Below, in pieces: positions 13,159 to 38,787 of a stretch of 64,000 nt of DNA. The stretch's first letter is position 1, and each line of letters begins with the position of its first letter. The position numbers were made by a program, and so were the translations under genes. The DNA comes from Sphingomonas metalli. Lineage in GTDB: Bacteria > Pseudomonadota > Alphaproteobacteria > Sphingomonadales > Sphingomonadaceae. The notes under the pieces were generated by a model. It did not search any database, was not told where the DNA came from, and was given only the letters and a program-made list of their open reading frames with translations. The stretch covers positions 310,001 to 374,000 of the forward strand of contig NZ_BMIH01000001.1 in NCBI RefSeq assembly GCF_014641735.1, written 5' to 3'.

Positions 13159-14850
13159 TCACCCCTGCTCGCCCAACACCTCCTTCACCAGATCCTTGCG
13201 GCTGAGCTTGCCGATCATCGTCTTCGGCAGGCTCTCGCGCACCACCACGGTATCAACCCGCTCGTGCCGACCGAGCTGCGGGTTGAGCCAGCTTGCCAGC
13301 GCCGCGCCGTCGACCGCGGCGCCCTCCTCCAGCGTCACATAGGCGCGCGGCTGCTCGCCGCGATAGGCGTCGGGTATGCCGATCACCAACGCCTCCTTTA
13401 CCGCCGGGTGGTGGTGGAGCACCGCCTCGATCTGGCTTGGAAAGACCTTGAAGCCGCTGACCGCGATCATGTCCTTCAGCCGGTCGACCACCCGGATGAA
13501 CCCGTCCGCATCGATCGCCCCCACGTCGCCGGTGCGCAGCCAGCGTCGCCCGCCGGCATCGGTGACGAAGACCTGTGCATCCGCCTCGGGCCGGTTCCAG
13601 TAGCCCATCATGATCTGCGGCCCGGCGATCGCGATCTCGCCCGGTTCGCCGTCCGGCGCGGGACGCGTAGGATCCTCCTTGTCGAGCAGACGGATATCAG
13701 TGCCCGGCAGCGGCTGGCCGATCGTTCCCGAGCGCGCATGGCCGTCATAGGGATTGGACGAGACGACGCCCGAGCTTTCCGAAAGCCCGTATCCCTCGAC
13801 CAGCGTCGCCCCGGTGACTGCCTGGAACCGCGTCTTGAGTTCCGCCGGCAGCGGCGCGCCGCCCGATACGCAGATCCGCAGCGAGGAGAAGTCGGTCCGC
13901 GGCGTCGCGGGATGATCGAGCAGCGCCTGATACATGGTCGGCACGCCGGGCATCGACGTCGCGCGCGTCCGGGCCAGCGCGGCGAGCACCTGTCCCGCGT
14001 CGAACCGCGGCAGCATCACGATCTCGCCCCCGGTCAGCACCGTGCGGTTGAGCACGCAGGTATTGGCGAAGACATGGAAGAGCGGCAGCACGCCCATGAT
14101 CCGGTCGACCGACCGTCCCCGCTCGGGATCGAGGCTGGCGACCTGCTCGGCATTGGCGGCCAGATTGCGGTGCGACAGCATCGCGCCCTTGGGCGTGCCC
14201 GTCGTGCCGCCGGTATATTGGATCAGTGCGACGTCGCGTTCGGGATCGATGGCGGGTCGGCCGCAACCGCCATCGTTGGCGATCAGCTGCGAGAAGGCCA
14301 TGACCCGCGGGTCCTGCGGCCGCACCGCCACTTCGCGCCGCCGCGTGAGGCGGTAGAGAATCGACTTGGCCGGCGGCAGCGCACCGGCCACCGACCCGAC
14401 CACCAGCCGCTCGAGCGCGCTCTCCTCCAGCACCTTCAGCGCCGTCGGCAAAAGCGCGGTGGCCGACAGGGTGAACAGGAGGCGCGTTCCCGAGTCGGCG
14501 ACCTGGTCGCACAGCTCCGCCGCCGTGTAGAGCGGGGAGAAGTTGACGACGGTCGCACCCAGCTTGAGGATGCCGTAATAGGCGGCGACATAGTGCGGGA
14601 CGTTGGGCAGGAAGAGCCCGATCCGGTCGCCCCGTCCATATCCCAGGGCGGCCAGCCCGCAGGCGACGCGATCGGCGCCGTCGAGCGTCTCGCCATAGCT
14701 GTAGTGGCGACCCAGGAAGTCGATCAGCGGGGCATCGCGATTGACCCGTGCAGACGCCTCGAACAGGTCGACCATGGAGTGCGGATCGGGCGTCCAGTCC
14801 CACCGGACGGGATGGCGATAATGGTCGGCCCAGGCCAGCGCGCTGCTCAT
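13159..14850 (-). CDS. Long-chain acyl-CoA synthetase (FadD-like, ANL superfamily)
   Basis: Adenylate-forming enzyme that activates carboxylic acids, probably fatty acids, to CoA thioesters. The 563-residue protein has the P-loop YTGGTTGTPKGAMLSH, the A5 motif GYGLSESSG, the A7/A8 motifs WLRTGDVGAIDADG and RLKDMIAVSGFKV, and the A10 Lys in LPKTMIGKLSRKDL. All catalytic elements are present. ATG 14848-14850 (MSSALAWADHY) is preferred over a TTG at 14866. The gene stands alone between convergent and same-strand neighbours. A role in supplying acyl chains to the sphingolipid locus about 15 kb away is possible but nothing in the sequence shows it. Confidence 0.88.
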   Translation of the reverse strand: MSSALAWADHYRHPVRWDWTPDPHSMVDLFEASARVNRDAPLIDFLGRHYSYGETLDGADRVACGLAALGYGRGDRIGLFLPNVPHYVAAYYGILKLGATVVNFSPLYTAAELCDQVADSGTRLLFTLSATALLPTALKVLEESALERLVVGSVAGALPPAKSILYRLTRRREVAVRPQDPRVMAFSQLIANDGGCGRPAIDPERDVALIQYTGGTTGTPKGAMLSHRNLAANAEQVASLDPERGRSVDRIMGVLPLFHVFANTCVLNRTVLTGGEIVMLPRFDAGQVLAALARTRATSMPGVPTMYQALLDHPATPRTDFSSLRICVSGGAPLPAELKTRFQAVTGATLVEGYGLSESSGVVSSNPYDGHARSGTIGQPLPGTDIRLLDKEDPTRPAPDGEPGEIAIAGPQIMMGYWNRPEADAQVFVTDAGGRRWLRTGDVGAIDADGFIRVVDRLKDMIAVSGFKVFPSQIEAVLHHHPAVKEALVIGIPDAYRGEQPRAYVTLEEGAAVDGAALASWLNPQLGRHERVDTVVVRESLPKTMIGKLSRKDLVKEVLGEQG

Positions 14851-14919
14851 TGACACAGGTGTAAGCAAGGCGGGTACAAAGGCAATAGGGACGCGTCCGG
14901 CCGGATCAGGCCCGGGCTA

Positions 14920-21525: not shown

Positions 21526-22033
21526 GGGTTCGGGCATCACGGACGAGATATAGATGGCCGTCTGTTCGTGACCGCCCGGACTGAACCGGCGTCATCCCGG
21601 CGAAGGTGAGACCTTCGCAAAGGTCCTCCGTCCACCCCGGCGCAGGCCGGGGTCCAGCTGGGTGAGCTTTGCAATAACTTACGGCCGTCCCCCGACTGGA
21701 CCCCGGCCTCCGCCGGGGTGGACGAGGGGTATTGAACAGGCAGACCTTCGCGAAGGCTGAAATCTTCCGCTGACAGCGCGAGGCGAGAGTCGCCAAAGAC
21801 CCCAGCCTGCGCTGGGCCGACGGTTGAGGCTGAGAGGATGTCTGGCGCCCCGCTTCGACCGTTCGCCCTGAGCGCAGTCGCAGGGCCTGAGACTTGACCG
21901 TGTTTCGACTTCGCTCAGCACGAGCGGGTCAGAGTGCTGCCATCCAGCCCTAAACGGCCCCTGCCCACCCCCGCTTGGCGTCCACGCCCGCCACGCCTAT
22001 GCTCCGCCGAAAATCAGCTGGGAGCGGAATGGC
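21526..22033. repeat. 508-base gene-free block of stacked family A and family B repeats
   Basis: Contains a GTCATCCCGGCGAAGG arm, a small hairpin CGAAGGTGAGACCTTCG (21601-21617), and a long inverted pair. That pair has arms 21630-21657 and 21696-21723 (27 of 28 bases complementary, CTGGACCCCGGCC...GGGGTGGAC). It is followed by CAGACCTTCGCGAAGGCTG, a CCCAGCCTGCGCTGGG hairpin and a family B pair at 21859-21928. I see no gene, tRNA or promoter I can support, apart from a GGAG ahead of the hydrolase start. Confidence 0.8.
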
Positions 22034-28386: not shown

Positions 28387-29487
28387 ATGCTGTTTCCACC
28401 CGCCTCCTGCCGACGACTGGTCGTCAAGATCGGCTCGGCGCTGCTCGTCGATCCGGACGGGGCGGTGCGTGCGCAATGGCTGGCCGGGATCGCCGCCGAC
28501 ATCGGCGCGCGCAGCCGGGCGGGGCAGCAGGTGGCGGTGGTCTCGTCCGGCGCGATCGCCCTGGGCGCGCGCCGCCTCGGCCTCGCAAAGGGCGGCCGGG
28601 CCAGCCTCGAAGATGCGCAGGCCGCCGCGGCGACCGGGCAGATCGCCCTCAGCCGCATTTGGGCGGAGGTGCTGGGTGCCGAGGGACTGACGGCGGCGCA
28701 GATGCTCGTCACGCTGGGCGATCTGGAGGACCGGCGGCGATATCTCAACGCCGCGGCGACGCTGGGGCGGTTGCTGGGACTCGGCGTGGTGCCGGTCATC
28801 AACGAGAATGACAGCGTCGCCACCGCCGAGATCCGCTTCGGTGACAACGACCGCCTCGCCGCCCGCGTGGCGCAGGCGGCCGGCGCCCATGGCGTCGTCC
28901 TGCTGTCCGACATCGACGGCCTCTACGATCGCAATCCGGCCGAGCCCGGCGCCGTCCATATCTCGACCGTCGCGCGCATCGATGCGAAGGTGGAGGCGAT
29001 GGCCGATACCCGCTCCGCCTCGGGCATGGGATCGGGCGGCATGACCTCGAAGATCGCCGCGGCGCGGATCGCGACCGGGGCAGGCATCCCGCTCGCCATC
29101 GCCTCCGGCCGCGTCGATCGGCCGCTTGGCGAGGCGCGGCGCCATACGCTGTTCGCGGCGGAGCGCGTGGCATCCGCGCGCAAGGCCTGGCTGGCCGGCG
29201 GCATCACCGCCGCCGGCGCGATCCATGTCGATGCCGGCGCCGCCCGGGCGATCGTCGCCGGCGGCAGCCTGCTCGCAGCCGGAGCCGTGCGGATCGAAGG
29301 CGCGTTCGGCCGCGGCGATCTGGTGACGATCGAGGGCCCGGCCGGGGTCGTTGCCCGCGGCCTGTCCGAATATGACGCCGCGGACGCCGCGCGCCTGCTC
29401 GGCCGGCAGAGCGACGAACAGGCCGCGATCCTCGGCCACGAACCGCGCGCCGCCCTCGTCCACCGCAACCATCTGGCGCTGCTGTGA
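28387..29487 (+). CDS. proB: Glutamate 5-kinase
   Basis: Catalyses ATP-dependent phosphorylation of glutamate, the first step of proline synthesis, and is feedback-inhibited by proline. The 366-residue protein has the amino acid kinase domain (LVVKIGSALLV, VVSSGAIALGARRLGL, INENDSVATAEIRFGDNDRL, SGMGSGGMTSKI). A C-terminal PUA domain follows from about residue 275. ATG 28387 lies 30 bases after the Uma2 gene. It overlaps the downstream cerR start by GTGA, so proline and sphingolipid genes share a transcript. Confidence 0.96.
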   Translation: MLFPPASCRRLVVKIGSALLVDPDGAVRAQWLAGIAADIGARSRAGQQVAVVSSGAIALGARRLGLAKGGRASLEDAQAAAATGQIALSRIWAEVLGAEGLTAAQMLVTLGDLEDRRRYLNAAATLGRLLGLGVVPVINENDSVATAEIRFGDNDRLAARVAQAAGAHGVVLLSDIDGLYDRNPAEPGAVHISTVARIDAKVEAMADTRSASGMGSGGMTSKIAAARIATGAGIPLAIASGRVDRPLGEARRHTLFAAERVASARKAWLAGGITAAGAIHVDAGAARAIVAGGSLLAAGAVRIEGAFGRGDLVTIEGPAGVVARGLSEYDAADAARLLGRQSDEQAAILGHEPRAALVHRNHLALL

Positions 29488-30380
29488 CCGTCATCGCGAT
29501 GACCGGCGCGACCGGCTTCGTCGGCAAGGCGGTCGTCGCGCAGGCGCTCGCCGCCGGCCACCACGTCCGCGCCCTCGCCCGCCGCCCGCAACCCGACCGG
29601 GCGGGCCTGCACTGGGTCGCCGGTTCGCTGGAGGATGACGGAGCCTTGTGCGAACTGGCGCGCGGAGCCGATGCGGTCATCCATGTCGCCGGCGTGGTCA
29701 ACGCGCCCGATCGCTCGGCCTTCGTGGCCGGCAATGTCGAGGGGACCCGCGCAGTGCTCGCCGCCTCGCGCGGCATCGCCCGCTTCGTCCATGTCTCGTC
29801 GCTCGCCGCCCGCGAGCCGGGGCTTTCGGACTATGGCTGGTCCAAGGCGGAGGCGGAGCGACTGGTCGAGGCCTCTGCCCTGCCCTGGACGATCGTCCGT
29901 CCGCCCGGCATCTTCGGCCCCGGCGATCTCGACCAGCTCGACCTCTACAGGCTCGCGCGGCGGGGGCTGGCGCTGCTGCCGCCGCCCGGATTCCTGTCGC
30001 TGATCGCGGTCGAGGATCTGGCGCGGCTGCTGCTCACGCTCGCGACGCAAGAGGCCCCGCGCACGATATACGAAGCCGATGACGGCAGCGAAGGCTGGAC
30101 CCACGCCGCCTATGCCCGGGCCATCGGCGCCGCCGTCGGGCAGCGCGTCCTGCCGCTGCACCTGCCGCCCGCCCTGTTGCGGCTGGCGGCCTGGGTCGAC
30201 GGCCGGCTGCGCGGCGACGCTGCGCGGCTGACGCGCGATCGCGTCTCCTATTTCTGCCATCCCGACTGGCGGATCGATCCGGCCCGCCGCCCCCCCGCCG
30301 CTCTCTGGCGGCCGGAAGTGCCGACGACCCAGGGGCTGGCCGATACCGCGCGATGGTATCGCGCGCAGGGCCTGTTATAG
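29484..30380 (+). CDS. cerR: NAD-dependent epimerase/dehydratase family, probable ceramide reductase
   Basis: Extended/atypical SDR protein of 298 residues. It has an N-terminal Rossmann motif GATGFVGKAVV, the VNAPDRSAFVAGNVEGTRAV segment, VSSLAAREPG and the catalytic Tyr-Lys in YGWSKAEAE. In Caulobacter the homologous gene next to spt encodes the reductase of the 3-keto group in ceramide synthesis. The same neighbourhood (acp and spt immediately downstream) supports that role here. It begins with GTG overlapping the proB stop and lies 37 bases before the acp gene. Confidence 0.82.
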   Translation: MTVIAMTGATGFVGKAVVAQALAAGHHVRALARRPQPDRAGLHWVAGSLEDDGALCELARGADAVIHVAGVVNAPDRSAFVAGNVEGTRAVLAASRGIARFVHVSSLAAREPGLSDYGWSKAEAERLVEASALPWTIVRPPGIFGPGDLDQLDLYRLARRGLALLPPPGFLSLIAVEDLARLLLTLATQEAPRTIYEADDGSEGWTHAAYARAIGAAVGQRVLPLHLPPALLRLAAWVDGRLRGDAARLTRDRVSYFCHPDWRIDPARRPPAALWRPEVPTTQGLADTARWYRAQGLL

Positions 30381-30417
30381 CCGCAACCTTGCCGCATTTG
30401 CTGCCCAAGGATTTTTC

Positions 30418-30666
30418 ATGAGCGACCGCCCGAGCATCTTAGACACCGTCACCGCGCAGATCGAACCCTTTAACAAGAAGGGCGTCGCGCTGACCGAGGC
30501 GACCAGCTTCCAGAGCGATCTGGAGTGGGACAGCCTGACCGTGATGGATTTCGTCGCGGCGATCGAGGACGAATTCGACATCGTCATCACGATGAACATG
30601 CAGGCGGAGATCGAGACCGTCGGCCAGCTGGTCGATGCCGTCGCCAAGCTGAAGGACACGCAGTGA
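30418..30666 (+). CDS. Acyl carrier protein dedicated to sphingolipid synthesis
   Basis: 82-residue ACP. The phosphopantetheine attachment Ser is Ser39 in EWDSLTVMDF, on a typical four-helix ACP pattern with acidic helix II (FVAAIEDEFDI). It is distinct from housekeeping AcpP, which carries DSLDTVE. It lies between cerR and spt and overlaps spt by GTGA. In the Caulobacter cluster an equivalent ACP accompanies serine palmitoyltransferase, so this one probably delivers the acyl chain for condensation with serine. ATG 30418 follows a weak ribosome binding site. Confidence 0.88.
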   Translation: MSDRPSILDTVTAQIEPFNKKGVALTEATSFQSDLEWDSLTVMDFVAAIEDEFDIVITMNMQAEIETVGQLVDAVAKLKDTQ

Positions 30667-31925
30667 CCGAGACCGGGCTCCAGACCGAGACGCTTCCCGC
30701 CGCGCCCGCTGCCGCGCCGACGGCCGGCGACCTGATGGCGAAGTTCGATCCGCTGATTGCCGAGCGGCAGAAGCTGATCGACAGCGGCGTCATCGATCCG
30801 TTCGCGATCGTGATGGAAGAGGTCAGGAGCCCGACCGAAGCGGTGATCGACGGTCGCGAGACGATCCTGCTCGGCACCTACAACTATATGGGCATGACCT
30901 TCGACCCGGACGTCATCGCCGCAGGCCGCACGGCGCTGGAGAATTTCGGGTCGGGCACCAATGGCAGCCGCATGCTCAACGGCACCTTCCGCGACCATAT
31001 CGAGGCGGAAGAGGCGCTGCGCGACTTCTACGGCACCACGGGCGCGATCGTCTTCTCGACCGGCTATATGGCCAATCTGGGCATGATCTCCACCCTGGCG
31101 GGCAAGGGCGACTATGTCATCCTCGATGCCGACAGCCATGCATCGATCTATGACGGCTGCAAGCAGGGCTACGCGGAAATCGTCCGCTTCCGCCACAACA
31201 GCGTCGAGGATCTCGACCGCCGCCTCGGCCGCCTGCCGAAGGACGCGGGCAAGCTGGTGGTGCTGGAGGGCGTCTATTCGATGCTGGGCGACGTCGCCCC
31301 GCTCAAGGAGATGGTCGCGGTCGCCAAGAAGCATGGCGCGATGGTGCTGTCGGACGAGGCGCACTCCATGGGCTTCTACGGCCCCAACGGCCGCGGCGTG
31401 TACGAGGCGCAGGGCTGCGAGGGCGAGGTCGACTTCATCGTCGGCACCTTCTCCAAGTCGGTGGGCACGGTCGGCGGCTTCTGCGTGTCGAACCATCCGA
31501 AGTTCGAGGCGATCCGCCTCGCCTGCCGCCCCTATATCTTCACCGCCAGCCTGCCGCCCTCGGTCGTCGCGACGGCGGCGGCCTCGATCCGCAAGCTCAA
31601 GGTCGCGCATGAGAAGCGCGCGCGGTTGTGGGACAATGCCCGCAACCTGCATGGCGGGCTGAAGGCGCTGGGCTTCAACATCGGCACCGAGACGTGCGAC
31701 AGCGCCATCGTCGCGGTGATCCTGGAGGACCAGACCCAGGCGGTGGCGATGTGGCAGGCGCTGCTGCTCAGCGGTCTCTATGTCAACGTCGCCAGGCCGC
31801 CGGCGACCCCGGCCGGGACCTTTCTGCTGCGCTGCTCCATCTGCGCGGAGCACACGCCCGCGCAGATCGCGGCCGTGCTGGAGCGGTTCGCCGCGGCAGG
31901 ACGGGCTACCGGCGTGATCGCCTGA
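30663..31925 (+). CDS. spt: Serine palmitoyltransferase
   Basis: PLP enzyme of the alpha-oxoamine synthase family that condenses L-serine with palmitoyl thioester to 3-ketosphinganine, the first step of sphingolipid synthesis. Counting from GTG 30663 the protein is 420 residues. The PLP Lys is Lys265 (TFSKSVG), the ring-stacking His is His159 (DADSHA), Asp231 and His234 are in SDEAHS, and Asn100 is in SGTNGS. All of these match the published Sphingomonas paucimobilis enzyme numbering. It is cytosolic and soluble, unlike eukaryotic homologues. It overlaps the ACP gene by GTGA. Confidence 0.97.
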   Translation: MTETGLQTETLPAAPAAAPTAGDLMAKFDPLIAERQKLIDSGVIDPFAIVMEEVRSPTEAVIDGRETILLGTYNYMGMTFDPDVIAAGRTALENFGSGTNGSRMLNGTFRDHIEAEEALRDFYGTTGAIVFSTGYMANLGMISTLAGKGDYVILDADSHASIYDGCKQGYAEIVRFRHNSVEDLDRRLGRLPKDAGKLVVLEGVYSMLGDVAPLKEMVAVAKKHGAMVLSDEAHSMGFYGPNGRGVYEAQGCEGEVDFIVGTFSKSVGTVGGFCVSNHPKFEAIRLACRPYIFTASLPPSVVATAAASIRKLKVAHEKRARLWDNARNLHGGLKALGFNIGTETCDSAIVAVILEDQTQAVAMWQALLLSGLYVNVARPPATPAGTFLLRCSICAEHTPAQIAAVLERFAAAGRATGVIA

Positions 31926-31973
31926 CGGACTAGCGGCTATCGCGAAGGCCGCCAAGCGGGTACAAGGGACACG

Positions 31974-33911
31974 GTGGAGCGGGAAAGCGACACGAAAGCG
32001 CCGGGGGGCGCCGGGCTGTGGCAGACGATATCGCTGGTCGCGATGGCGCTGCTGGCAGGCGCTGTGCTGGTCGCGTTAACCATAACGCTGCGGGGTGCGA
32101 ACCGGGAGCGGGACCATGCGCTCGAGCTCCAGCGCCACAGCTATGACGTGATGATCCTCGCCCGTTCGCTGGCAGGAACGATCGCGCGGTCGGAGGCGTC
32201 GCTCGGCCGCTACGTCATTTCCGGCGACCGGGCGATGGGCCAGCTCTATTTCGACGACTGGCGCCTGGCCGAATCGCAGATCGACCGGCTCGACCAGCTG
32301 ACCAGCGACAATGCCGCGCAGGACCCGTCGATACGCCGCCTGCGCAAGGCCTATGAGGCGCGCGGGCAGGACCTGTCCGAAACCGCGCTGTCGACCACCT
32401 ATGGCCGCAACTCGCAGGCGCTGGCCCGCTACTACCAGTCGCGCAAGGCACGCGCGCTGATGACCATCAATGGCGAGCTCGACCGGATCATCGCGCGCGA
32501 GCGGCGATTGCTCGACAGCCGGGTCGCCAACGCCAGCAAATCGGTGGCGCGATCGAGCCTGATCGCCAGCATCCTCGCGACCTTCGGGCTGGCGCTGGTC
32601 CTGGGCGTCATCGTGCTCGGCTGGCTGTCGGTGCGGGCCGTCAACGAGCGCACGCGGGCGCGTGACGAGGCCGCGGCGGCGCGGGAACGGGCGGAGGCGC
32701 TCGCCAGCGCAGTCGCGGAGGCGACCAGCGCGCTGCAGGCGCGCGAAGCCGTGCTGCGCCAGGTCCAGAAGATGGAGGCCGTCGGGCAGTTGACCGGCGG
32801 GATCGCCCATGATTTCAATAACATGCTTGCCGTGGTTCTGGGCGGACTGGAGCTGGCGCGCCGTCACATCGCCACCGACCCCGCCGGAGCGGAGCGGCAT
32901 CTGGAGAATGCCGCCGAAGGCGCCAGCCGCGCCGCCGCGCTGACCCGTCGCCTGCTCGCCTTCAGCCGGGAGGAGCCGCTCAACCCCGAATCGATCGCCG
33001 CGGCGGAGCTGATCGACGCCATGTCCGAGCTGCTCGACCGCACGCTGGGCGATGCGATCACGCTCGACGTGCGGCACGAGGCGGACGGCTGGCGCGTCCG
33101 CGCCGATCGCGTGCAGCTGGAAAATGCCGTGCTCAACCTCGCGGTCAACGCGCGGGACGCGATGGGCGGCCGTGGCACGATCCGCGTCACCACCGCCGCC
33201 CGCCGGCTGGCCGCCGGACAGGTCGGGGCCTGCGCGGCGGGCGACTATGTCGCGCTGTCGGTCGCCGACGAGGGCTGCGGCATGACGCCGGACGTGGTCG
33301 AGCGGGTGTTCGAGCCGTTCTTCACCACCAAGGAAAAGGGCAAGGGCACCGGCCTGGGGCTCAGCCAGATCTTCGCGTTCGTGCAGGGACTGTCGGGCGA
33401 GATCGCGATCGACACCGCGCCGGGCCGGGGCACGACCGTCACCCTCTACCTGCCCCGCGATCTCGTCGCGCCCATGGCCGCGGTGGTGGAGGAGCAGCCG
33501 GCCCGGATCGAGACCGAGACGGTCGGGCTCGACGTGCTGGTCGTCGAGGACGATCCGCGCGTCCTCGCCGCCACGCTCGGCGCTCTCGAGGAGTTGGGGC
33601 ACCGCGCGATCGGCTGCGACGATCCCCTCGCGGTGCCCGACCTTCTCGCCCGGCATCCCCGGGTGACGCTGCTCGTGTCCGACGTGCTGATGCCCCGCCA
33701 GACCGGGCCGGAGATGGTCGCGGGGCTGCGCGACCGCTTCCCCCATCTCGCCGTCCTGTTCGTCACGGGTTATGCGGGCGAGGGCGCCGGCAGCGAGCTG
33801 GGCATCCATCAGGTCCTGCGCAAGCCCTTCACCCTGGCCCGGCTCGAGCGCGCCATCGCGGAGGCCATGCGGGGCCAGCGCCTGCCCGCCGAGCCGATCG
33901 CCGCGGAATAG
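31974..33911 (+). CDS. Hybrid sensor histidine kinase with C-terminal receiver
   Basis: 645-residue membrane kinase. TM1 is at about residues 17-40. A periplasmic helical region resembling CHASE3 follows (MILARSLAGTIARSEASLGR), then TM2 at about 195-218 and a coiled linker. The HisKA box is GGIAHDFNNMLAV, with N, G1 and G2 boxes NLAVNARDAMGG, DEGCGMTPD and GKGTGLGLSQ. The receiver from about residue 520 has its phosphoacceptor Asp in VSDVLMPRQTG. GTG 31974 follows AAGGGA. There is no DNA-binding partner next door. It lies 48 bases after spt and ahead of lptF, so it may sense envelope state; that is inference. Confidence 0.9.
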   Translation: MERESDTKAPGGAGLWQTISLVAMALLAGAVLVALTITLRGANRERDHALELQRHSYDVMILARSLAGTIARSEASLGRYVISGDRAMGQLYFDDWRLAESQIDRLDQLTSDNAAQDPSIRRLRKAYEARGQDLSETALSTTYGRNSQALARYYQSRKARALMTINGELDRIIARERRLLDSRVANASKSVARSSLIASILATFGLALVLGVIVLGWLSVRAVNERTRARDEAAAARERAEALASAVAEATSALQAREAVLRQVQKMEAVGQLTGGIAHDFNNMLAVVLGGLELARRHIATDPAGAERHLENAAEGASRAAALTRRLLAFSREEPLNPESIAAAELIDAMSELLDRTLGDAITLDVRHEADGWRVRADRVQLENAVLNLAVNARDAMGGRGTIRVTTAARRLAAGQVGACAAGDYVALSVADEGCGMTPDVVERVFEPFFTTKEKGKGTGLGLSQIFAFVQGLSGEIAIDTAPGRGTTVTLYLPRDLVAPMAAVVEEQPARIETETVGLDVLVVEDDPRVLAATLGALEELGHRAIGCDDPLAVPDLLARHPRVTLLVSDVLMPRQTGPEMVAGLRDRFPHLAVLFVTGYAGEGAGSELGIHQVLRKPFTLARLERAIAEAMRGQRLPAEPIAAE

Positions 33912-33996
33912 CGCCGCCGCCCCCCGCCGCCATCATCCGCCGCTCCGCCGCAAAATCGGCTGGCGCCCGGCCGAGACGGGCGATACCGCGGGCGCG

Positions 33997-35208
33997 ATGA
34001 AATCGATCGATCGCTACATGGCGCGGCTGATCGCGCTGCCGCTGCTCGCGACCCTGGTGATCGCGGCGATGCTGCTGATGCTCGACCGGATGCTGCGGCT
34101 GTTCGACTTCGTCGCGACGCAGGGCGGGCCGGTCAGCGTCGTGTGGCGGATGCTCGCCAATCTGCTGCCCGAATATCTCGGCCTCGGCATCCCGATCGGC
34201 CTGTTGCTCGGCATCCTCCTCGCGTTCCGCCGCCTGGCGACGTCGTCCGAGCTCGACGTGATGCGCGGGGTCGGGATGAGCTTCAACCGGCTGCTGCGCA
34301 TCCCCTTCATGTATGCGGTCGGTCTCGCCATCGTGAACATCCTGATCCTCGGCTTCGTCCAGCCTCAGGCCCGATACTATTACGAGCAGTTGCGCTTCGA
34401 GCTGCGCACCGGCGCGCTCGGCGCCTCGATCAAGGTCGGCGAATTCACCAACCTCGGCAGCCGCATGACGCTGCGGATCGAGCAGAGCCGCGACAGCGGC
34501 CGCGATCTCGCCGGCATCTTCGTCCATGTCCAGACGCCCAAGAACGACTGGATCGCCGTGACGGCGGAACGCGGCCGCTTCATGGCGACCGACGACCCCA
34601 ACGTCATCATCTTCCGCCTCAACAACGGCACGCTGATCCACAACCATCCCGACTTCCGCACGCCGCGGGTGCTGCAGTTCACGGCGCACGACCTCCCGAT
34701 CGACCTTCCGCGGTTCGAGAGCTTCCGGCAGCGCGGCGAGCGGAGCCTGGAGTTCACGCTGCCCGAACTCGCCCGGCTGGGGCACAGCAACGCGATGACG
34801 GAAAAGCAGCGCGATACCAGTCGTGCGGAGTTCCACTTCCGCCTAGCCGAGGTCGCGACCATGTTCCTGCTGCCGATGCTGGCGGTCGCGCTGGGCGTGC
34901 CGCCGAAGCGCTCCTCCTCGGCGCTCGGCGTGTTCCTGGCCGTCGTGATGATCGTCACCTTCTTCAAGCTGCTCGAATATGCGCAGAGCGTGGGTGAGCG
35001 CGGTGCGGTCGATCCGGCGGTGGCGCTCTGGACGCCCTTCGCGATCTTCACCGCGCTGGTGGTGTGGATGTACTGGCAGATCGCCTATGTGCCCGGCGGC
35101 CAGCCGATCGCCGCGCTGGAGCGGGGCTTCGCCTCGATCGTCAAGGCGGTGACGCGGCGCCTGCCCGGCCGCAAGCGCGCCCCGATCCCCGGAGAACAGC
35201 CGGCATGA
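33997..35208 (+). CDS. lptF: LptF-type inner-membrane permease of lipid export ABC transporter
   Basis: 403-residue YjgP/YjgQ family protein with six membrane helices and a periplasmic beta-jellyroll between TM3 and TM4. Visible marks are RYMARLIALPLLATLVIAAM, LLPEYLGLGIPIGLLLGILL and SELDVMRGVGMSFNRLL, the coupling helix region. The C-terminal helices include FLLPMLAVALGVPPKRSSS. With LptG and the LptB ATPase it extracts lipid from the inner membrane and passes it to LptC/LptA. It overlaps lptG by ATGA. In LPS-free sphingomonads the cargo may be glycosphingolipid, as the spt locus directly upstream suggests. Confidence 0.9.
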   Translation: MKSIDRYMARLIALPLLATLVIAAMLLMLDRMLRLFDFVATQGGPVSVVWRMLANLLPEYLGLGIPIGLLLGILLAFRRLATSSELDVMRGVGMSFNRLLRIPFMYAVGLAIVNILILGFVQPQARYYYEQLRFELRTGALGASIKVGEFTNLGSRMTLRIEQSRDSGRDLAGIFVHVQTPKNDWIAVTAERGRFMATDDPNVIIFRLNNGTLIHNHPDFRTPRVLQFTAHDLPIDLPRFESFRQRGERSLEFTLPELARLGHSNAMTEKQRDTSRAEFHFRLAEVATMFLLPMLAVALGVPPKRSSSALGVFLAVVMIVTFFKLLEYAQSVGERGAVDPAVALWTPFAIFTALVVWMYWQIAYVPGGQPIAALERGFASIVKAVTRRLPGRKRAPIPGEQPA

Positions 35209-36293
35209 GCTTCTTTCCCTCGCGCACCGTCGCCATCTACATGGCGCGGCTGTTCCTGACGCGCACCTTCGCCATCCTGTTCGCGCTGGTCTTGGTGCTC
35301 CAGGCGCTCGACCTGCTGAGCGAGTCGGGCGACATCCTGTCGGTTCCGGGCAACGGGCAGGCGCAGATCCTGACCTATGTCTCGCTGCGCGCACCCCAGA
35401 TCATCGCCCGCTTCCTGCCCTTCTCGGTGCTGCTCGGGACGATCCTGACGCTCATCACCATGAACCAGAACAGCGAGATCATCGCGCTCAAGGCCGCCGG
35501 CCTCTCGGCGCATCAGGTGCTCGCGCCGCTGATCGTGGCCAGCCTCGGCGTCGCCGGCGTCTCCTTCGTCTTCAACGAGCGGATCGTGACCCGCGCGACC
35601 GCGACGCTGACCCAGTGGGAGAAGGTCGATTACGGGGTCATGCCGTTCGACCGGGGCGACCGGTCGAACGTCTGGGTGCGCGACGGCGACGACCTGATCC
35701 AGGTCGACCAGATCAAGGGCCGCGGCGACCAGGCGCTGCTCGGCGGGGTGACGCTCTACGACCGCGCCGGCGGCAATCTGCAGTCGATCGTCCGCGCGCC
35801 GCGCGGCCGGCGCGACGGCGACGGCTGGCAAATCGCACCGGCCACACGGTTCGAGGTGGCGACCGGCAAGCTGTCGCAGATCGGCGCGGTCGTGATCGGG
35901 CGCGGGGTCCGGCCCGACCAGTTCACCCTTGCCTCGGTCGATCCGGACAGCCTGCCCTTCGACCAGCTCGAGTCCGCGATCGACGATTTGGCGGAGTCGG
36001 GCCGCCCGACCAAGGCGCTCGACGGCGCCCTGTGGCACAAGCTGTCGGGGCCGCTGTCGTCGATCCTGATGCCGCTGCTGGGAGCGGTCGCGGCGTTCGG
36101 CATCGCCCGCTCGGGCAAGCTCTTCGTCCGCGCCGTGATCGGCATGGCGCTGGGCTTCGCCTATTTCGTCGCGGACAATTTCGCGCTCGCTATGGGCAAT
36201 CTCGGCGCGTACCCGCCGTTCCTCGCGGCCTGGGCGCCCTTCCTGCTCTTCTTCCTGATCGGCGAAGCGGTGCTGTTCCGCACCGAGGAATAG
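35205..36293 (+). CDS. lptG: LptG-type inner-membrane permease of lipid export ABC transporter
   Basis: 362-residue partner of LptF with the same architecture. It has an N-terminal helix pair (YMARLFLTRTFAILFALVLV), the APQIIARFLPFSVLLGTIL helix, and the coupling region NQNSEIIALKAAGLS. A periplasmic beta domain covers about residues 130-260, and three C-terminal helices include LYSILMPLLG-like SSILMPLLGAVAAFG. ATG 35205 overlaps the lptF stop. lptB, lptC and lptA are not in the window. It is followed by a family A repeat and then the convergent desaturase gene. Confidence 0.91.
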   Translation: MSFFPSRTVAIYMARLFLTRTFAILFALVLVLQALDLLSESGDILSVPGNGQAQILTYVSLRAPQIIARFLPFSVLLGTILTLITMNQNSEIIALKAAGLSAHQVLAPLIVASLGVAGVSFVFNERIVTRATATLTQWEKVDYGVMPFDRGDRSNVWVRDGDDLIQVDQIKGRGDQALLGGVTLYDRAGGNLQSIVRAPRGRRDGDGWQIAPATRFEVATGKLSQIGAVVIGRGVRPDQFTLASVDPDSLPFDQLESAIDDLAESGRPTKALDGALWHKLSGPLSSILMPLLGAVAAFGIARSGKLFVRAVIGMALGFAYFVADNFALAMGNLGAYPPFLAAWAPFLLFFLIGEAVLFRTEE

Positions 36294-36311
36294 CGGCCAC
36301 TTGGCCGGAAT

Positions 36312-36397
36312 CGTCGCCCCAGCGCAGGCTGGGGCTTCCTGCGGCTCCTGCTTCGCGCCAAACCGGGAGATCCCAGCCTTCGCTGGGATGACGACGG
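36312..36397. repeat. Family A inverted repeat pair (variant) after lptG
   Basis: CGTCGCCCCAGCGCAGGCTG plus GGG is followed by the imperfect inverted arm GATCCCAGCCTTCGCTGGGA plus TGACGACG. Each arm holds its own CCCAGC...GCTGGG hairpin. It fills most of the gap between the convergent lptG and desaturase genes. Confidence 0.75.
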
Positions 36398-36419
36398 GAT
36401 GGTCCGAACGGTGCAGGCT

Positions 36420-37514
36420 CTAGCGCCGGATCATCGTGCTCCGCGCGATGCGACCGACTAGCACCGGCAGGCCCGTATAGCTCGCCTTGTGATAGGGCGA
36501 GCCGGGTTCCAGCAGCGCGGTCAGCCGGCGGTGCGCTTCGCCCAGCGCGTGGTAGGGTACGCTGGGGATCAGGTGGTGGAGCGCATGATAGCGCAGGCCC
36601 ACCGGCGCCCAGAGGCCGGGCAGCAGCGTCGGCGGCGGCACGTTGACCGAATCGAGATACTGCGCCGTGACGCTCATCGGCTCGCCCTCATTCTCCCACA
36701 GATGCGCGACCAGCGTGCGCACCTGGTTGAGCACCGCGACGGCCGCGGCGATGCCGAGGATGATCGCAAAGGACCGCAGCGGGATGATGCCGGTCGCCGC
36801 CATCGCGATCAGCGCGATCGCCCAGAGGCTGGCGGCCGTCTCGACCCGGTCCCACAGCCGCTTCGCCTCGCCCTCCGGGGCACGACGGCGGAATTGCGGG
36901 TTGATCGCGAGCGCGGAGAAACGCTCCACCACGGCGGTGCGCAGGCGCGGGGACAGCAGCGACAGCGGCGACAGGACCGCGAAGCGGATGAGCAGCCCGA
37001 CCGGCGCCAGCGCCGACACGACGATGAACAGCGGCAGGGTCCACGGCTTCATGAGCGCGAGCGGCAGATATTCCGGATCCTCCGCCGTGCCATAGCGGGT
37101 CTTGGCATGATGGAGATTGTGCACGCCCTCGTACATGAAGGACGGGATCAGCATCGGCACGCCGACCAGCGCGTTCCACCCGGCGCGAAAGCCCGGCAGC
37201 GCGCTGTGCTTCATGTGGCTCACCTCATGGATGAAGCTCATCGCGCGATACAGCGCCAGGACCGACACGATCGCGGCGACGGTTACGATCGCCGTTGACG
37301 ATGCGCTGGCCGCCACCACCAGCGCGCCATAGCCGATCCCGCAGGATGCGATCAGATCGCCCCAATACACGGCCGGCTTCGGCTGCGACAATTCGCGCGT
37401 CAGATCGGCCGCCGCGCGGAGCATCGCCTTGTCGTCGGCGACGCGGGTGGACGTGGCGCCCGTCGCTGTGACGGCGCGGTCGAAGGTGATCGTGCTGGTC
37501 ATGGCCTCGCTCAT
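36420..37514 (-). CDS. Membrane fatty acid desaturase/hydroxylase-like protein
   Basis: 364-residue integral membrane di-iron enzyme. The three His boxes are HEVSH, HNLHH (in YEGVHNLHHAKTRYG) and HALHH (in LRYHALHHLIPSVPYH). They are spaced among four or more hydrophobic helices, the pattern of fatty-acyl or sphingolipid desaturases and hydroxylases. ATG 37514 follows GGAGG at only two bases; ATG 37502 is an alternative. It is divergent from the ceramide synthase gene (121 bases apart) and convergent with lptG. Its place inside the sphingolipid locus suggests a sphingoid or ceramide acyl substrate, which remains inference. Confidence 0.83.
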   Translation of the reverse strand: MSEAMTSTITFDRAVTATGATSTRVADDKAMLRAAADLTRELSQPKPAVYWGDLIASCGIGYGALVVAASASSTAIVTVAAIVSVLALYRAMSFIHEVSHMKHSALPGFRAGWNALVGVPMLIPSFMYEGVHNLHHAKTRYGTAEDPEYLPLALMKPWTLPLFIVVSALAPVGLLIRFAVLSPLSLLSPRLRTAVVERFSALAINPQFRRRAPEGEAKRLWDRVETAASLWAIALIAMAATGIIPLRSFAIILGIAAAVAVLNQVRTLVAHLWENEGEPMSVTAQYLDSVNVPPPTLLPGLWAPVGLRYHALHHLIPSVPYHALGEAHRRLTALLEPGSPYHKASYTGLPVLVGRIARSTMIRR

Positions 37515-37635
37515 TGCCTCCAGATAGTGGCGACAGCATGGCTTTGACAGCCGCAGGCGATGACAGAATCCTCACTCGCCATGATCGGTCCTGCCGTTTA
37601 CAGACCCGCGATCATATGACCGGGGGTGTTTGGGC

Positions 37636-38787
37636 ATGGCTGACGTGATCATCCGCAAGATCGACAGCAAGCGAGACCGTAAGGCTTTCGTCGAACTGCC
37701 CTTTCGACTTTACGCCGACGATCCGAACTGGGTCGCGCCGCTCAAGTCGGAAGCCCTCGGCCTGATCACGCCCGAGAAGAACGGCTGGTACAGCCATGCC
37801 AGGGCGCAGCTGTTCCTCGCCGAGCAGTACGGGCGCGCCGTCGGGCGGATTTCCGCGCATATCGACACGCTGGCGCTGACGCTCGATCCGTCGCTCGGCT
37901 TCGGCCCCGGGGTCGGCCAGTGGGGCCTGATGGATGCCGAGCGCGAGGAAGTCTTCACCGCCCTGCTCGCCGCGGCGGAACAGTGGCTGCGCGAGCAGGG
38001 CATGACTCGCGCGCTCGGTCCGATCTCCCAGTCGATCTGGGAGGAGCCGGGCCTGCTGATCGACGGATACGATCATCCGCCGACGGTGATGATGGGTCAT
38101 GCCAAGCCCGAATATCGCGGCTGGATCGAGCGGGCGGGCTATGCGCCGGTCAAGACGCTCTACACCTATGAGCTGGACATCACGCAGAAATTCCCGCCGA
38201 TCGTGCAGCGGATCATCCAGTCGGGCGAGCGCAACCCGCGCATCCATGTGCGCGAGGTCGACAAGTCGAAGTTCGAGGAAGAGGCGGCGATCATCCTCCA
38301 CATCCTCAACGATGCATGGTCGGACAATTGGGGCTTCGTGCCGCTCACCCCGCCCGAGATCAAGGACGTCGGCGTCAAGCTGAAGCCGATCGTGTTCAAC
38401 GACCTGATCCGCATCGCCGAGCTGGACGGCAAGCCGGTCGCCTTCATGATCACCCTGCCCGACCTTAACGAGCCGCTGAAGCCGCTCAAGGGATCGCTCC
38501 TGCCCTTCGGCTGGGCGAAGCTGCTGCTCTGGCTGCGCCGCCCCCAGGTTCGGACGATGCGCGTGCCGCTGATGGGCGTGGTGAAGGAGCTGCAGTCCTC
38601 GCGCATGGCGAGCCAGCTGGCCTTCATGATGATCGAATATATCCGCCTCGCCTCGGTGACGCGATATGGCGCCAGCCGCGGCGAGATCGGCTGGATCCTG
38701 GAGGACAATCAGGGGATGCGCTCGATCGCGGAGACGATCCAGAGCCGCGTCAACAAGACCTACCAGATCTATGAGCGGGGGATCTGA
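37636..38787 (+). CDS. cerS: Bacterial ceramide synthase (GNAT-like N-acyltransferase)
   Basis: 383-residue protein of the GNAT-like family that in Caulobacter is the bacterial ceramide synthase, unrelated to the eukaryotic enzyme. It begins VIIRKIDSKRDRKAFVELPF and YADDPNWVAPL. It has two GNAT halves, the first with AEQYGRAVGRISAHIDTL and GFGPGVGQWGLMDAE, the second with ELDGKPVAFMITLPDLNE and YGASRGEIGWILEDN. ATG 37636 has GGGGG nine bases upstream. Its product would N-acylate 3-ketosphinganine or sphinganine made by Spt. It lies 5.7 kb from spt, with the kinase, lptFG and the desaturase between. Confidence 0.86.
   Translation: MADVIIRKIDSKRDRKAFVELPFRLYADDPNWVAPLKSEALGLITPEKNGWYSHARAQLFLAEQYGRAVGRISAHIDTLALTLDPSLGFGPGVGQWGLMDAEREEVFTALLAAAEQWLREQGMTRALGPISQSIWEEPGLLIDGYDHPPTVMMGHAKPEYRGWIERAGYAPVKTLYTYELDITQKFPPIVQRIIQSGERNPRIHVREVDKSKFEEEAAIILHILNDAWSDNWGFVPLTPPEIKDVGVKLKPIVFNDLIRIAELDGKPVAFMITLPDLNEPLKPLKGSLLPFGWAKLLLWLRRPQVRTMRVPLMGVVKELQSSRMASQLAFMMIEYIRLASVTRYGASRGEIGWILEDNQGMRSIAETIQSRVNKTYQIYERGI

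Follow-up and report, generated by a model that had tools for sequence, protein, structure and literature searches.

What do genes of the lipopolysaccharide (LPS) export type do among ceramide genes, in a bacterium in whose genome LpxC, taken here as the marker of LPS synthesis, was not found? The question is raised by a locus of Sphingomonas metalli (assembly GCF_014641735.1, contig NZ_BMIH01000001.1), which occupies positions 28387-38787 of a stretch of 64,000 nt, called here the window, whose numbering is used for all coordinates. The genes of this island follow one another in the order proB, cerR, acp, spt, a hybrid histidine kinase gene, lptF, lptG, a desaturase-like gene and cerS. We infer that the Lpt pump containing this LptFG pair is likely to export sphingolipids here.

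A single permease pair in an order without LpxC

The genome holds one LptF (33997..35208, plus strand) and one LptG (35205..36293, plus strand), both encoded in the island. The two proteins match PF03739 and qualify as members of their NCBIfam families, LptF with 253.4 bits for TIGR04407 (cut-off 230) and LptG with 294.4 bits for TIGR04408 (cut-off 240). The partners LptA, LptC and LptD, together with an LptB-like ABC ATPase, are encoded elsewhere in the genome, with the LptC match barely above the cut-off and LptB assigned by its ABC domain and its position beside lptC-lptA.

In a survey of 99 genomes of the order Sphingomonadales, 38 from the own family (Sphingomonadaceae) and 61 from other families, LpxC was found in none, by a search that detects it in Caulobacter and E. 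coli. The genes spt and cerS were each present in 98 genomes, LptF/G matches in 96, LptD in 98 and LptC in 83. Exactly two LptF/G matches were counted in 82 genomes, more than two in 13 and one in a single genome; within the own family, exactly two were found in 36 of 38. In the other families, the distance from the pair to spt is at most 12 kb in 52 of 54 genomes, and that to cerS in 51 of 52; for the own family the corresponding counts are 19 of 38 and 35 of 38 (for cerS, 86 of 90 together). These counts drew on 98 genomes with spt, 93 with lpt and 96 with cerS, those without a usable position being left out, with one Lpt place per genome. Among the genomes sampled, clustering of lptFG with spt or cerS is the common state of the order. 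In the own family the cluster is partly dispersed, as spt is located elsewhere in half of the genomes and lptFG mostly remains by cerS. In contrast, the available part of the Caulobacter study PMC11324152 describes a scattered arrangement for Sphingomonadales, based on S. wittichii and Z. mobilis, while our survey found the genes mostly clustered.

Two clades of LptF and LptG

In a survey of the class, this type of Spt was found in 21 of 125 genomes, 18 of which lie outside the order. Seven of these 18 possess LpxC, and six of the seven have two LptFG pairs, the remaining one (G154) having one; the other eleven are without LpxC, ten of them with one pair and one (G145) with none. LPS-only genomes (n = 11) have one pair, with a weak extra pair added in G112. 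The number of pairs is associated with the presence of LpxC and spt (Fisher p 1.5e-5, not corrected for kinship); for this test, the extra pair of G112 (E about 1e-21 to 1e-23) was disregarded and G145 was entered without a pair. The comparison covered each of the 18 spt-bearing genomes beyond the order. Of the 104 that lack spt it used 11, picked from 20 listed by skipping small genomes and one contaminated genome. In 12 of the 18 genomes, spt and a pair share a contig and are no more than 15 kb apart, and the sphingolipid-type pair of G167 and of G155 adjoins cerS, not spt.

In both the LptF and the LptG tree, a single branch with support of 100/100 divides 18 LPS rows from 36 sphingolipid rows. 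The quick overview trees gave supports of 99 and 98 for LptF, and of 99 and 93 for LptG, the latter value on the sphingolipid side. In the careful trees, one sequence was left out (L096), another was moved to LptG (L142), and the LPS label of four rows (L111, L114, L116, L127) was taken from the quick tree. In each of the six two-pair genomes, the pairs belong to different clades. All pairs fetched from LPS-free genomes, the second one of G050 among them, fall on the sphingolipid side. The additional pair of G013 is 45-47% identical to the sphingolipid side vs 27-28% to the LPS side. The second pairs of these two LPS-free genomes (L093 in G050 and L166 in G013) are close to the spt-linked pair of G189. 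The window proteins fall outside the clade of LPS makers and within the sphingolipid clade, with a median identity of 37-40% to that clade outside the own family vs 26% to the LPS clade, with overlapping ranges.

The clades also differ in LptG at the columns of E. coli K40 and K41, lysines which we take to contact lipid A. These columns are basic in 14 and 17 of the 18 LPS-clade rows; in the 36 rows of the sphingolipid clade they are basic in 1 and 5 and acidic in 19 and 22, and the window LptG, unlike that of E. coli, has no basic pair there. A separate pairwise alignment puts the equivalents of K34, K40 and K41 slightly differently. E. coli K34 was rejected as a discriminator, its column being mostly Asp in both alphaproteobacterial clades.

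These data bear on the possibility that the window lptFG is simply of the usual LPS type, either surviving as a relic or serving a lipid A that escaped detection and is made without LpxC, as scores above the cut-offs of the NCBIfam LPS-export models could suggest. Given the position of the pair in the sphingolipid clade, the lack of LpxC matches throughout the sampled order and, according to the available part of PMC11087976, the glycosphingolipid that Sphingomonas has in place of LPS, we consider this explanation very improbable.

Permease pairs beside spt in E. coli and on plasmids

A pair that serves sphingolipids would be expected beside spt also on plasmids and in hosts that make LPS. E. 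coli BL21(DE3) has genes for an AMP-ligase, an epimerase-family reductase, acp and spt, and directly after them comes a second lptG-lptF pair, annotated as LPS export (L152:835-7067); the housekeeping lptFG is located elsewhere. This ygh-region (ECD_RS14830-14855) resembles the Sphingomonas island in having these genes side by side; it differs in belonging to an LPS-making host, in the orientation of lptFG opposite to spt, and in having no kinase beside spt. Of 5426 complete E. coli genomes, 4042 have a single place that covers at least 80% of the spt-lptG-lptF stretch. The sphingolipid genes of E. coli B were described in PMC9386255, whose main text, as far as available, does not contain the word "lpt".

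Likewise, an Spt match was present in 25 plasmid records. Eleven of these were opened, and an LptF-LptG pair was found within about 13 kb of spt in all ten proteobacterial ones (two of Pseudomonas, three of Roseomonas, and those of Sphingomonas, Rahnella, Klebsiella, Diaphorobacter and E. coli). The eleventh, from the Gram-positive Priestia, was opened as a contrast and had no lptFG in the stretch read. Two of the opened records only were typed as conjugative. The Sphingomonas parapaucimobilis record (L156), titled plasmid, holds rplU, rpmA, obgE and proB besides the island, and is probably a chromosome piece or a chromid. The Pseudomonas veronii pair is annotated as hypothetical and was recognised by hidden Markov model. 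The pairs of the Roseomonas plasmids are placed outside the alphaproteobacterial LPS clade, with rows of the sphingolipid clade as the nearest, and the Diaphorobacter pair was left out of the trees. A quick tree groups the spt-linked pair of E. coli with the E. coli housekeeping pair; sphingolipid Lpt pairs may have been recruited once or several times.

Such occurrences have to be weighed against another explanation, by which lptFG of LPS-free bacteria export some other surface lipid or a polymer-linked lipid, and the proximity to spt is a matter of synteny. It agrees with the fact that own-family genomes with spt far from lptFG still keep the pair, and with the Lpt proteins of Borrelia burgdorferi, an LPS-free organism in which they were proposed as glycolipid carriers (PMC10353723); this bacterium is a spirochete, and sphingolipid is not named in the abstract of that paper, the part available. 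Synteny alone does not reach as far as two clades that track spt and LpxC, nor does it account for pairs beside spt in E. coli and on plasmid records, and we regard this explanation as unlikely. The view of the earlier note that the ceramide genes and lptFG belong together gains from their linkage across the order, in E. coli and on plasmids, and from the membership of the window lptFG in the sphingolipid clade.

Conservation of the gene order

Linkage was also inspected closer to home, in 80 named loci fetched by Spt, whose titles are mostly Sphingomonas and of which the closest is an uncultured Sphingomonas with 94% identity in Spt. Of 74 loci with room, 61 have lptF downstream of spt and 10 have it upstream, and in 3 it was not seen; six of the 80 loci had been dropped from this count. 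The cerS gene follows lptG within 5 kb in 51 of the 61 loci that have lptG and 5 kb of room. These 61 were left of the 80 after 14 short loci and 5 without lptG had been dropped, and in 50 of them the desaturase-like gene separates lptG from cerS; the remaining 11 show no desaturase there, which contig ends may explain. A cerR-type reductase precedes acp-spt in many loci, and acp sits before spt in nearly all loci examined. Since the gene order recurs in most of the 80 named loci, it is not due to chance, and the comparison across sphingomonad genomes for which the earlier note called shows the linkage of spt, lptFG and cerS to be conserved. Two records titled Arthrobacter sp. (L013) and Microvirga sp. 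(L051) hold the Sphingomonas-type island, and their titles look wrong.

Proposed export route and relation to known systems

According to the model that we favour, export of sphingolipids by Lpt, the locus would represent an ancient sphingolipid cluster of the Proteobacteria, aasR-cerR-acp-spt ... lptF-lptG ... cerS, in the form that it has in Sphingomonas. AcpR, Spt, CerS and CerR would make ceramide at the inner membrane, and glycosyltransferases encoded elsewhere would add sugars, as suggested by published Sphingomonas lipids. The island LptF and LptG would join LptB, LptC, LptA and LptD encoded elsewhere, and the assembled pump would extract the finished sphingolipid from the inner membrane and pass it along the LptC-LptA-LptD bridge into the outer leaflet, the route that LPS takes in other bacteria. 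Finally, the kinase behind spt may co-regulate the process.

In the available parts of two papers from 2024 (PMC11324152, PMC11087976), the transporter of sphingolipids to the outer membrane is stated to be unknown, and the first of them proposes LptC2, LptF2 and LptG2 for this role in Caulobacter. The idea of export is thus already in print, and no other published proposal of Lpt export of bacterial sphingolipids was found in our search, which had bioRxiv and most subscription journals outside its coverage. In the literature searched, we did not find the sole-pair state in an LpxC-free order, the split in two clades, the spt-linked pairs of E. coli and plasmids, or the kinase bound to spt.

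The Caulobacter crescentus cluster CC_1168-CC_1152 (aasR-cerR-acpR-spt, LptC2/LptF2/LptG2, cerS), as given in the part of PMC11324152 available, comprises the same ceramide genes as the window and likewise has lptFG, its second pair, close by, with cerS just after lptG. On the other hand, Caulobacter keeps LPS and a first LptFG, whereas the S. metalli genome has a single pair and no LpxC. The window has no match to aasR or the kinase module, no LptC2 was seen in the island, and a histidine kinase and a desaturase-like gene are present instead. Orthology with LptF2/LptG2 is suggested by arrangement and clade pattern, not by direct sequence comparison. With the LPS exporter of E. coli, LptB2FG-CADE (PDB 6mhu), the system shares the permease families as well as LptA, LptC, LptD and an LptB-like ATPase; it differs from the LPS export system in the lack of LpxC and in the separate clade of its pair, about 26% identical to alphaproteobacterial LPS-type pairs.

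Several observations weigh against sphingolipid export by this pair. In half of the own-family genomes spt is apart from lptFG, and outside the order a linkage with spt could not be shown in G115, G154, G155, G167 and G217. G154, which has both spt and LpxC, holds an LPS-type pair only; G145 has spt and no LptF/G match, and three genomes of the order (G009, G021, G037) have spt and cerS and no LptF/G match. In these four genomes, loss, divergence or missing sequence could be the reason. Among the 13 genomes of the order with more than two LptF/G matches, the only extra pairs read were those of G050 and G013, both of the sphingolipid type. The LptF tree carries a long-branch warning at L127, beside the dividing branch, and a common clade of the gammaproteobacterial spt-linked pairs with the alphaproteobacterial sphingolipid pairs was neither rejected nor established (approximately unbiased test, p 0.07 to 0.49). 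LptG columns 180 and 278 are basic in 32 and 36 of the 36 sphingolipid rows and in none of the 18 LPS rows, and E. coli LptG itself has K278; the two clades differ in charged positions in a way that fits different substrates and is not a plain loss of charge. Moreover, the absence of lipid A was judged from LpxC alone, no measurement of sphingolipid transport by Lpt was found in the literature, as far as it was available, and LptFG could export another glycolipid.

In a more general and tentative form, which we would sooner doubt than assert, Proteobacteria could have Lpt permease pairs that are each dedicated to one lipid. The sphingolipid pair would travel with spt, including on plasmids and in most E. 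coli, and one order would have lost LPS and would build its outer leaflet with no pair but the sphingolipid one, controlled in Sphingomonas by a kinase that is tied to spt. If so, Lpt would be a machine for glycolipid export more broadly, with permeases specific to the lipid, and many proteins annotated as "LPS export" would be sphingolipid exporters, possibly recruited more than once. The label would be wrong for the whole order and, in roughly three of every four complete E. coli genomes, for the second pair. Sphingomonads that have a single LptFG and no LPS would offer a clean test case, in which neither LPS nor another pair could confuse the result.

The histidine kinase behind spt

The gene that follows spt (31974..33911, plus strand) encodes a hybrid histidine kinase with a periplasmic CHASE3 domain and HisKA, HATPase and REC domains (Pfam), in which the His and Asp of a hybrid kinase are in place. 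His279, Asp570 and most of the checked motif residues are invariant in 76 sequences, with two variable positions in the G1 box; the CHASE3 part is more divergent, with a median of 57% identity to the window vs 68% for the kinase core. The kinase starts no more than 212 bases after spt in 73 of 79 loci (measured from match to match, median 101), the other 6 having no passing match; L076 was dropped because its contig is too short. In each of the 13 loci that have no lptF downstream of spt, it still follows spt.

In the order survey, which scored at most 12 candidates per genome and of which part of the matches was listed, near-full-length matches with at least 45% identity were present in 13 genomes, and among the matches listed all adjoin spt. 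These 13 orthologs have E values of 3.1e-135 or better, with the next match at 3.9e-98, and belong to three of the 17 sampled genus codes of the own family. Two near-full-length matches of about 40% lie away from spt (G054, G089).

The kinase could be a dedicated envelope sensor, in which CHASE3 reads the state of the sphingolipid or the envelope and REC relays phosphate, setting the transcription of spt and the export genes. The constant place behind spt and the conserved catalytic motifs, with a less conserved CHASE3 part, are consistent with such a role, which we rate slightly below an even chance. On the other hand, an ortholog is not among the matches listed for 25 of the 38 genomes of the own family or for any of the 61 from other families, some Sphingomonas-type loci have no kinase match, no partner regulator gene was seen beside the kinase, and its place could result from hitchhiking. 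In one own-family locus (L100) the kinase gene stands between spt and a DAGK_cat module, and the kinase was therefore gained, or moved, at the spt side within the family. The earlier note had counted the kinase as part of a unit with the ceramide and export genes; its linkage with spt is stronger than that note could know, while membership in such a unit holds for only 13 of the 38 own-family genomes. No paper linking a histidine kinase with sphingolipid, Spt and Sphingomonas was found within the same literature coverage.

Composition of the locus

All genes from cerR to cerS named in the earlier note were found at their places. The cerR-like gene (29484..30380, plus strand) encodes an NAD(P)-binding reductase (NAD_binding_10/Epimerase). 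After 37 bases it is followed by the gene for an acyl carrier protein (30418..30666, plus strand; PP-binding), of the AcpR type by position. The spt gene (30663..31925, plus strand), confirmed by a frame check, encodes a serine palmitoyltransferase of 420 aa, which with 785.6 bits passes the curated cut-off of 670 for NF047603; it overlaps acp by 4 bases (GTGA), its GTG start falling on the acp stop. The gaps from spt to the kinase and from the kinase to lptF are 48 and 85 bases, and lptF and lptG overlap by 4 bases. The genes are thus adjacent, as the word "fused" in the earlier note implied, and no gene fusion was seen in the island. The desaturase-like gene (36420..37514) is encoded on the minus strand; it converges with lptG and diverges from cerS (37636..38787, plus strand). 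Since it is on the opposite strand, a transcript common to cerS and spt-lptFG is not expected. An argument from promoters and terminators was dropped, as a scan gave 0 promoter-like and 3 terminator-like sites, not above shuffled sequences.

The product of cerS, for which an ATG start was chosen in the analysis, is a putative ceramide synthase-like N-acyltransferase. No Pfam or NCBIfam model matched it at E 0.001, and the assignment is based on its linkage and on similarity over 382 residues to YghO of E. coli PN43 (41%) and to a Rahnella N-acyltransferase (42%). Caulobacter CerR was reported to be periplasmic (PMC11087976, available part). In the window, the cerR frame has no start codon upstream and the Rossmann motif begins at about residue 7, which leaves no space for a signal peptide.

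Of a Caulobacter-type cluster, cerR, acpR, spt, lptFG and cerS are present together in the window. Two AasR-type proteins gave no match in it by tblastn, nor did five proteins encoded in the interval from spt to cerS at other loci, used for the kinase-module and headgroup genes. AasR supplies the preferred substrate of Spt. In Sphingomonadaceae, according to the available part of PMC9386255, aasR lies far from spt. An AMP-ligase gene at 13159-14868 was rejected as aasR, as its product is FadD-like (best model NF004114, vs NF006624 for the two AasR-type proteins) and is 24% identical to the AasR of L084, vs 46% between the AasRs of L084 and E. coli BL21. The claim that the pathway is gathered as one island was not borne out, and the neighbourhood as one complete pathway island was rejected, as neither AasR nor the headgroup module, including DAGK-type kinase genes, has a match in the window. 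In other loci, DAGK_cat proteins are encoded between spt and lptF on the strand opposite to spt, namely in L090 (another family, together with a DUF2141 protein) and in L100; L084 has a weak DAGK_cat match below the cut-off in this place.

The desaturase-like protein contains three His boxes (HEVSH, HNLHH, HALHH) and matches PF00487 (FA_desaturase). It may hydroxylate the amide-linked fatty acid of the sphingolipid at position 2, like the Caulobacter DesA-family protein CC_0202, whose role is cited in PMC11324152. Its recurrent place between lptG and cerS and its His boxes speak for this role; FA_desaturase enzymes act on many substrates, the likeness to CC_0202 is one of description and not of sequence comparison, and the available passage of PMC11324152 does not state the position hydroxylated, so the chances for and against seem evenly balanced to us. 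A fatty acid desaturase gene is also found near the betaproteobacterial sphingolipid cluster of the Diaphorobacter plasmid pDCB2 (L164:8682-9797), which counts in favour of the same role.

In front of the island, proB (28387..29487, plus strand; Pfam AA_kinase, PUA) encodes glutamate 5-kinase. The suggested translational coupling to cerR agrees with an overlap of 4 bases (GTGA), and the two genes are within 400 bases of each other in 77 of the 80 Sphingomonas-type loci. The arrangement looks local, as an AMP-ligase gene precedes cerR instead in L084, from another family, and is annotated likewise in E. coli BL21; four further loci (L090, L091, L107, L126) have before cerR an open reading frame of AMP-ligase-like size. 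As the AMP-ligase takes this place in L084, proB was rejected as a functional part, and it is probably a neighbour without a share in the lipid function. Finally, two short palindromes lie between lptG and the desaturase-like gene (36318..36393). The palindrome CCCAGC-N4-GCTGGG occurs there and at 21801, one copy being followed by ATGACG, and these sequences resemble dispersed repeats.

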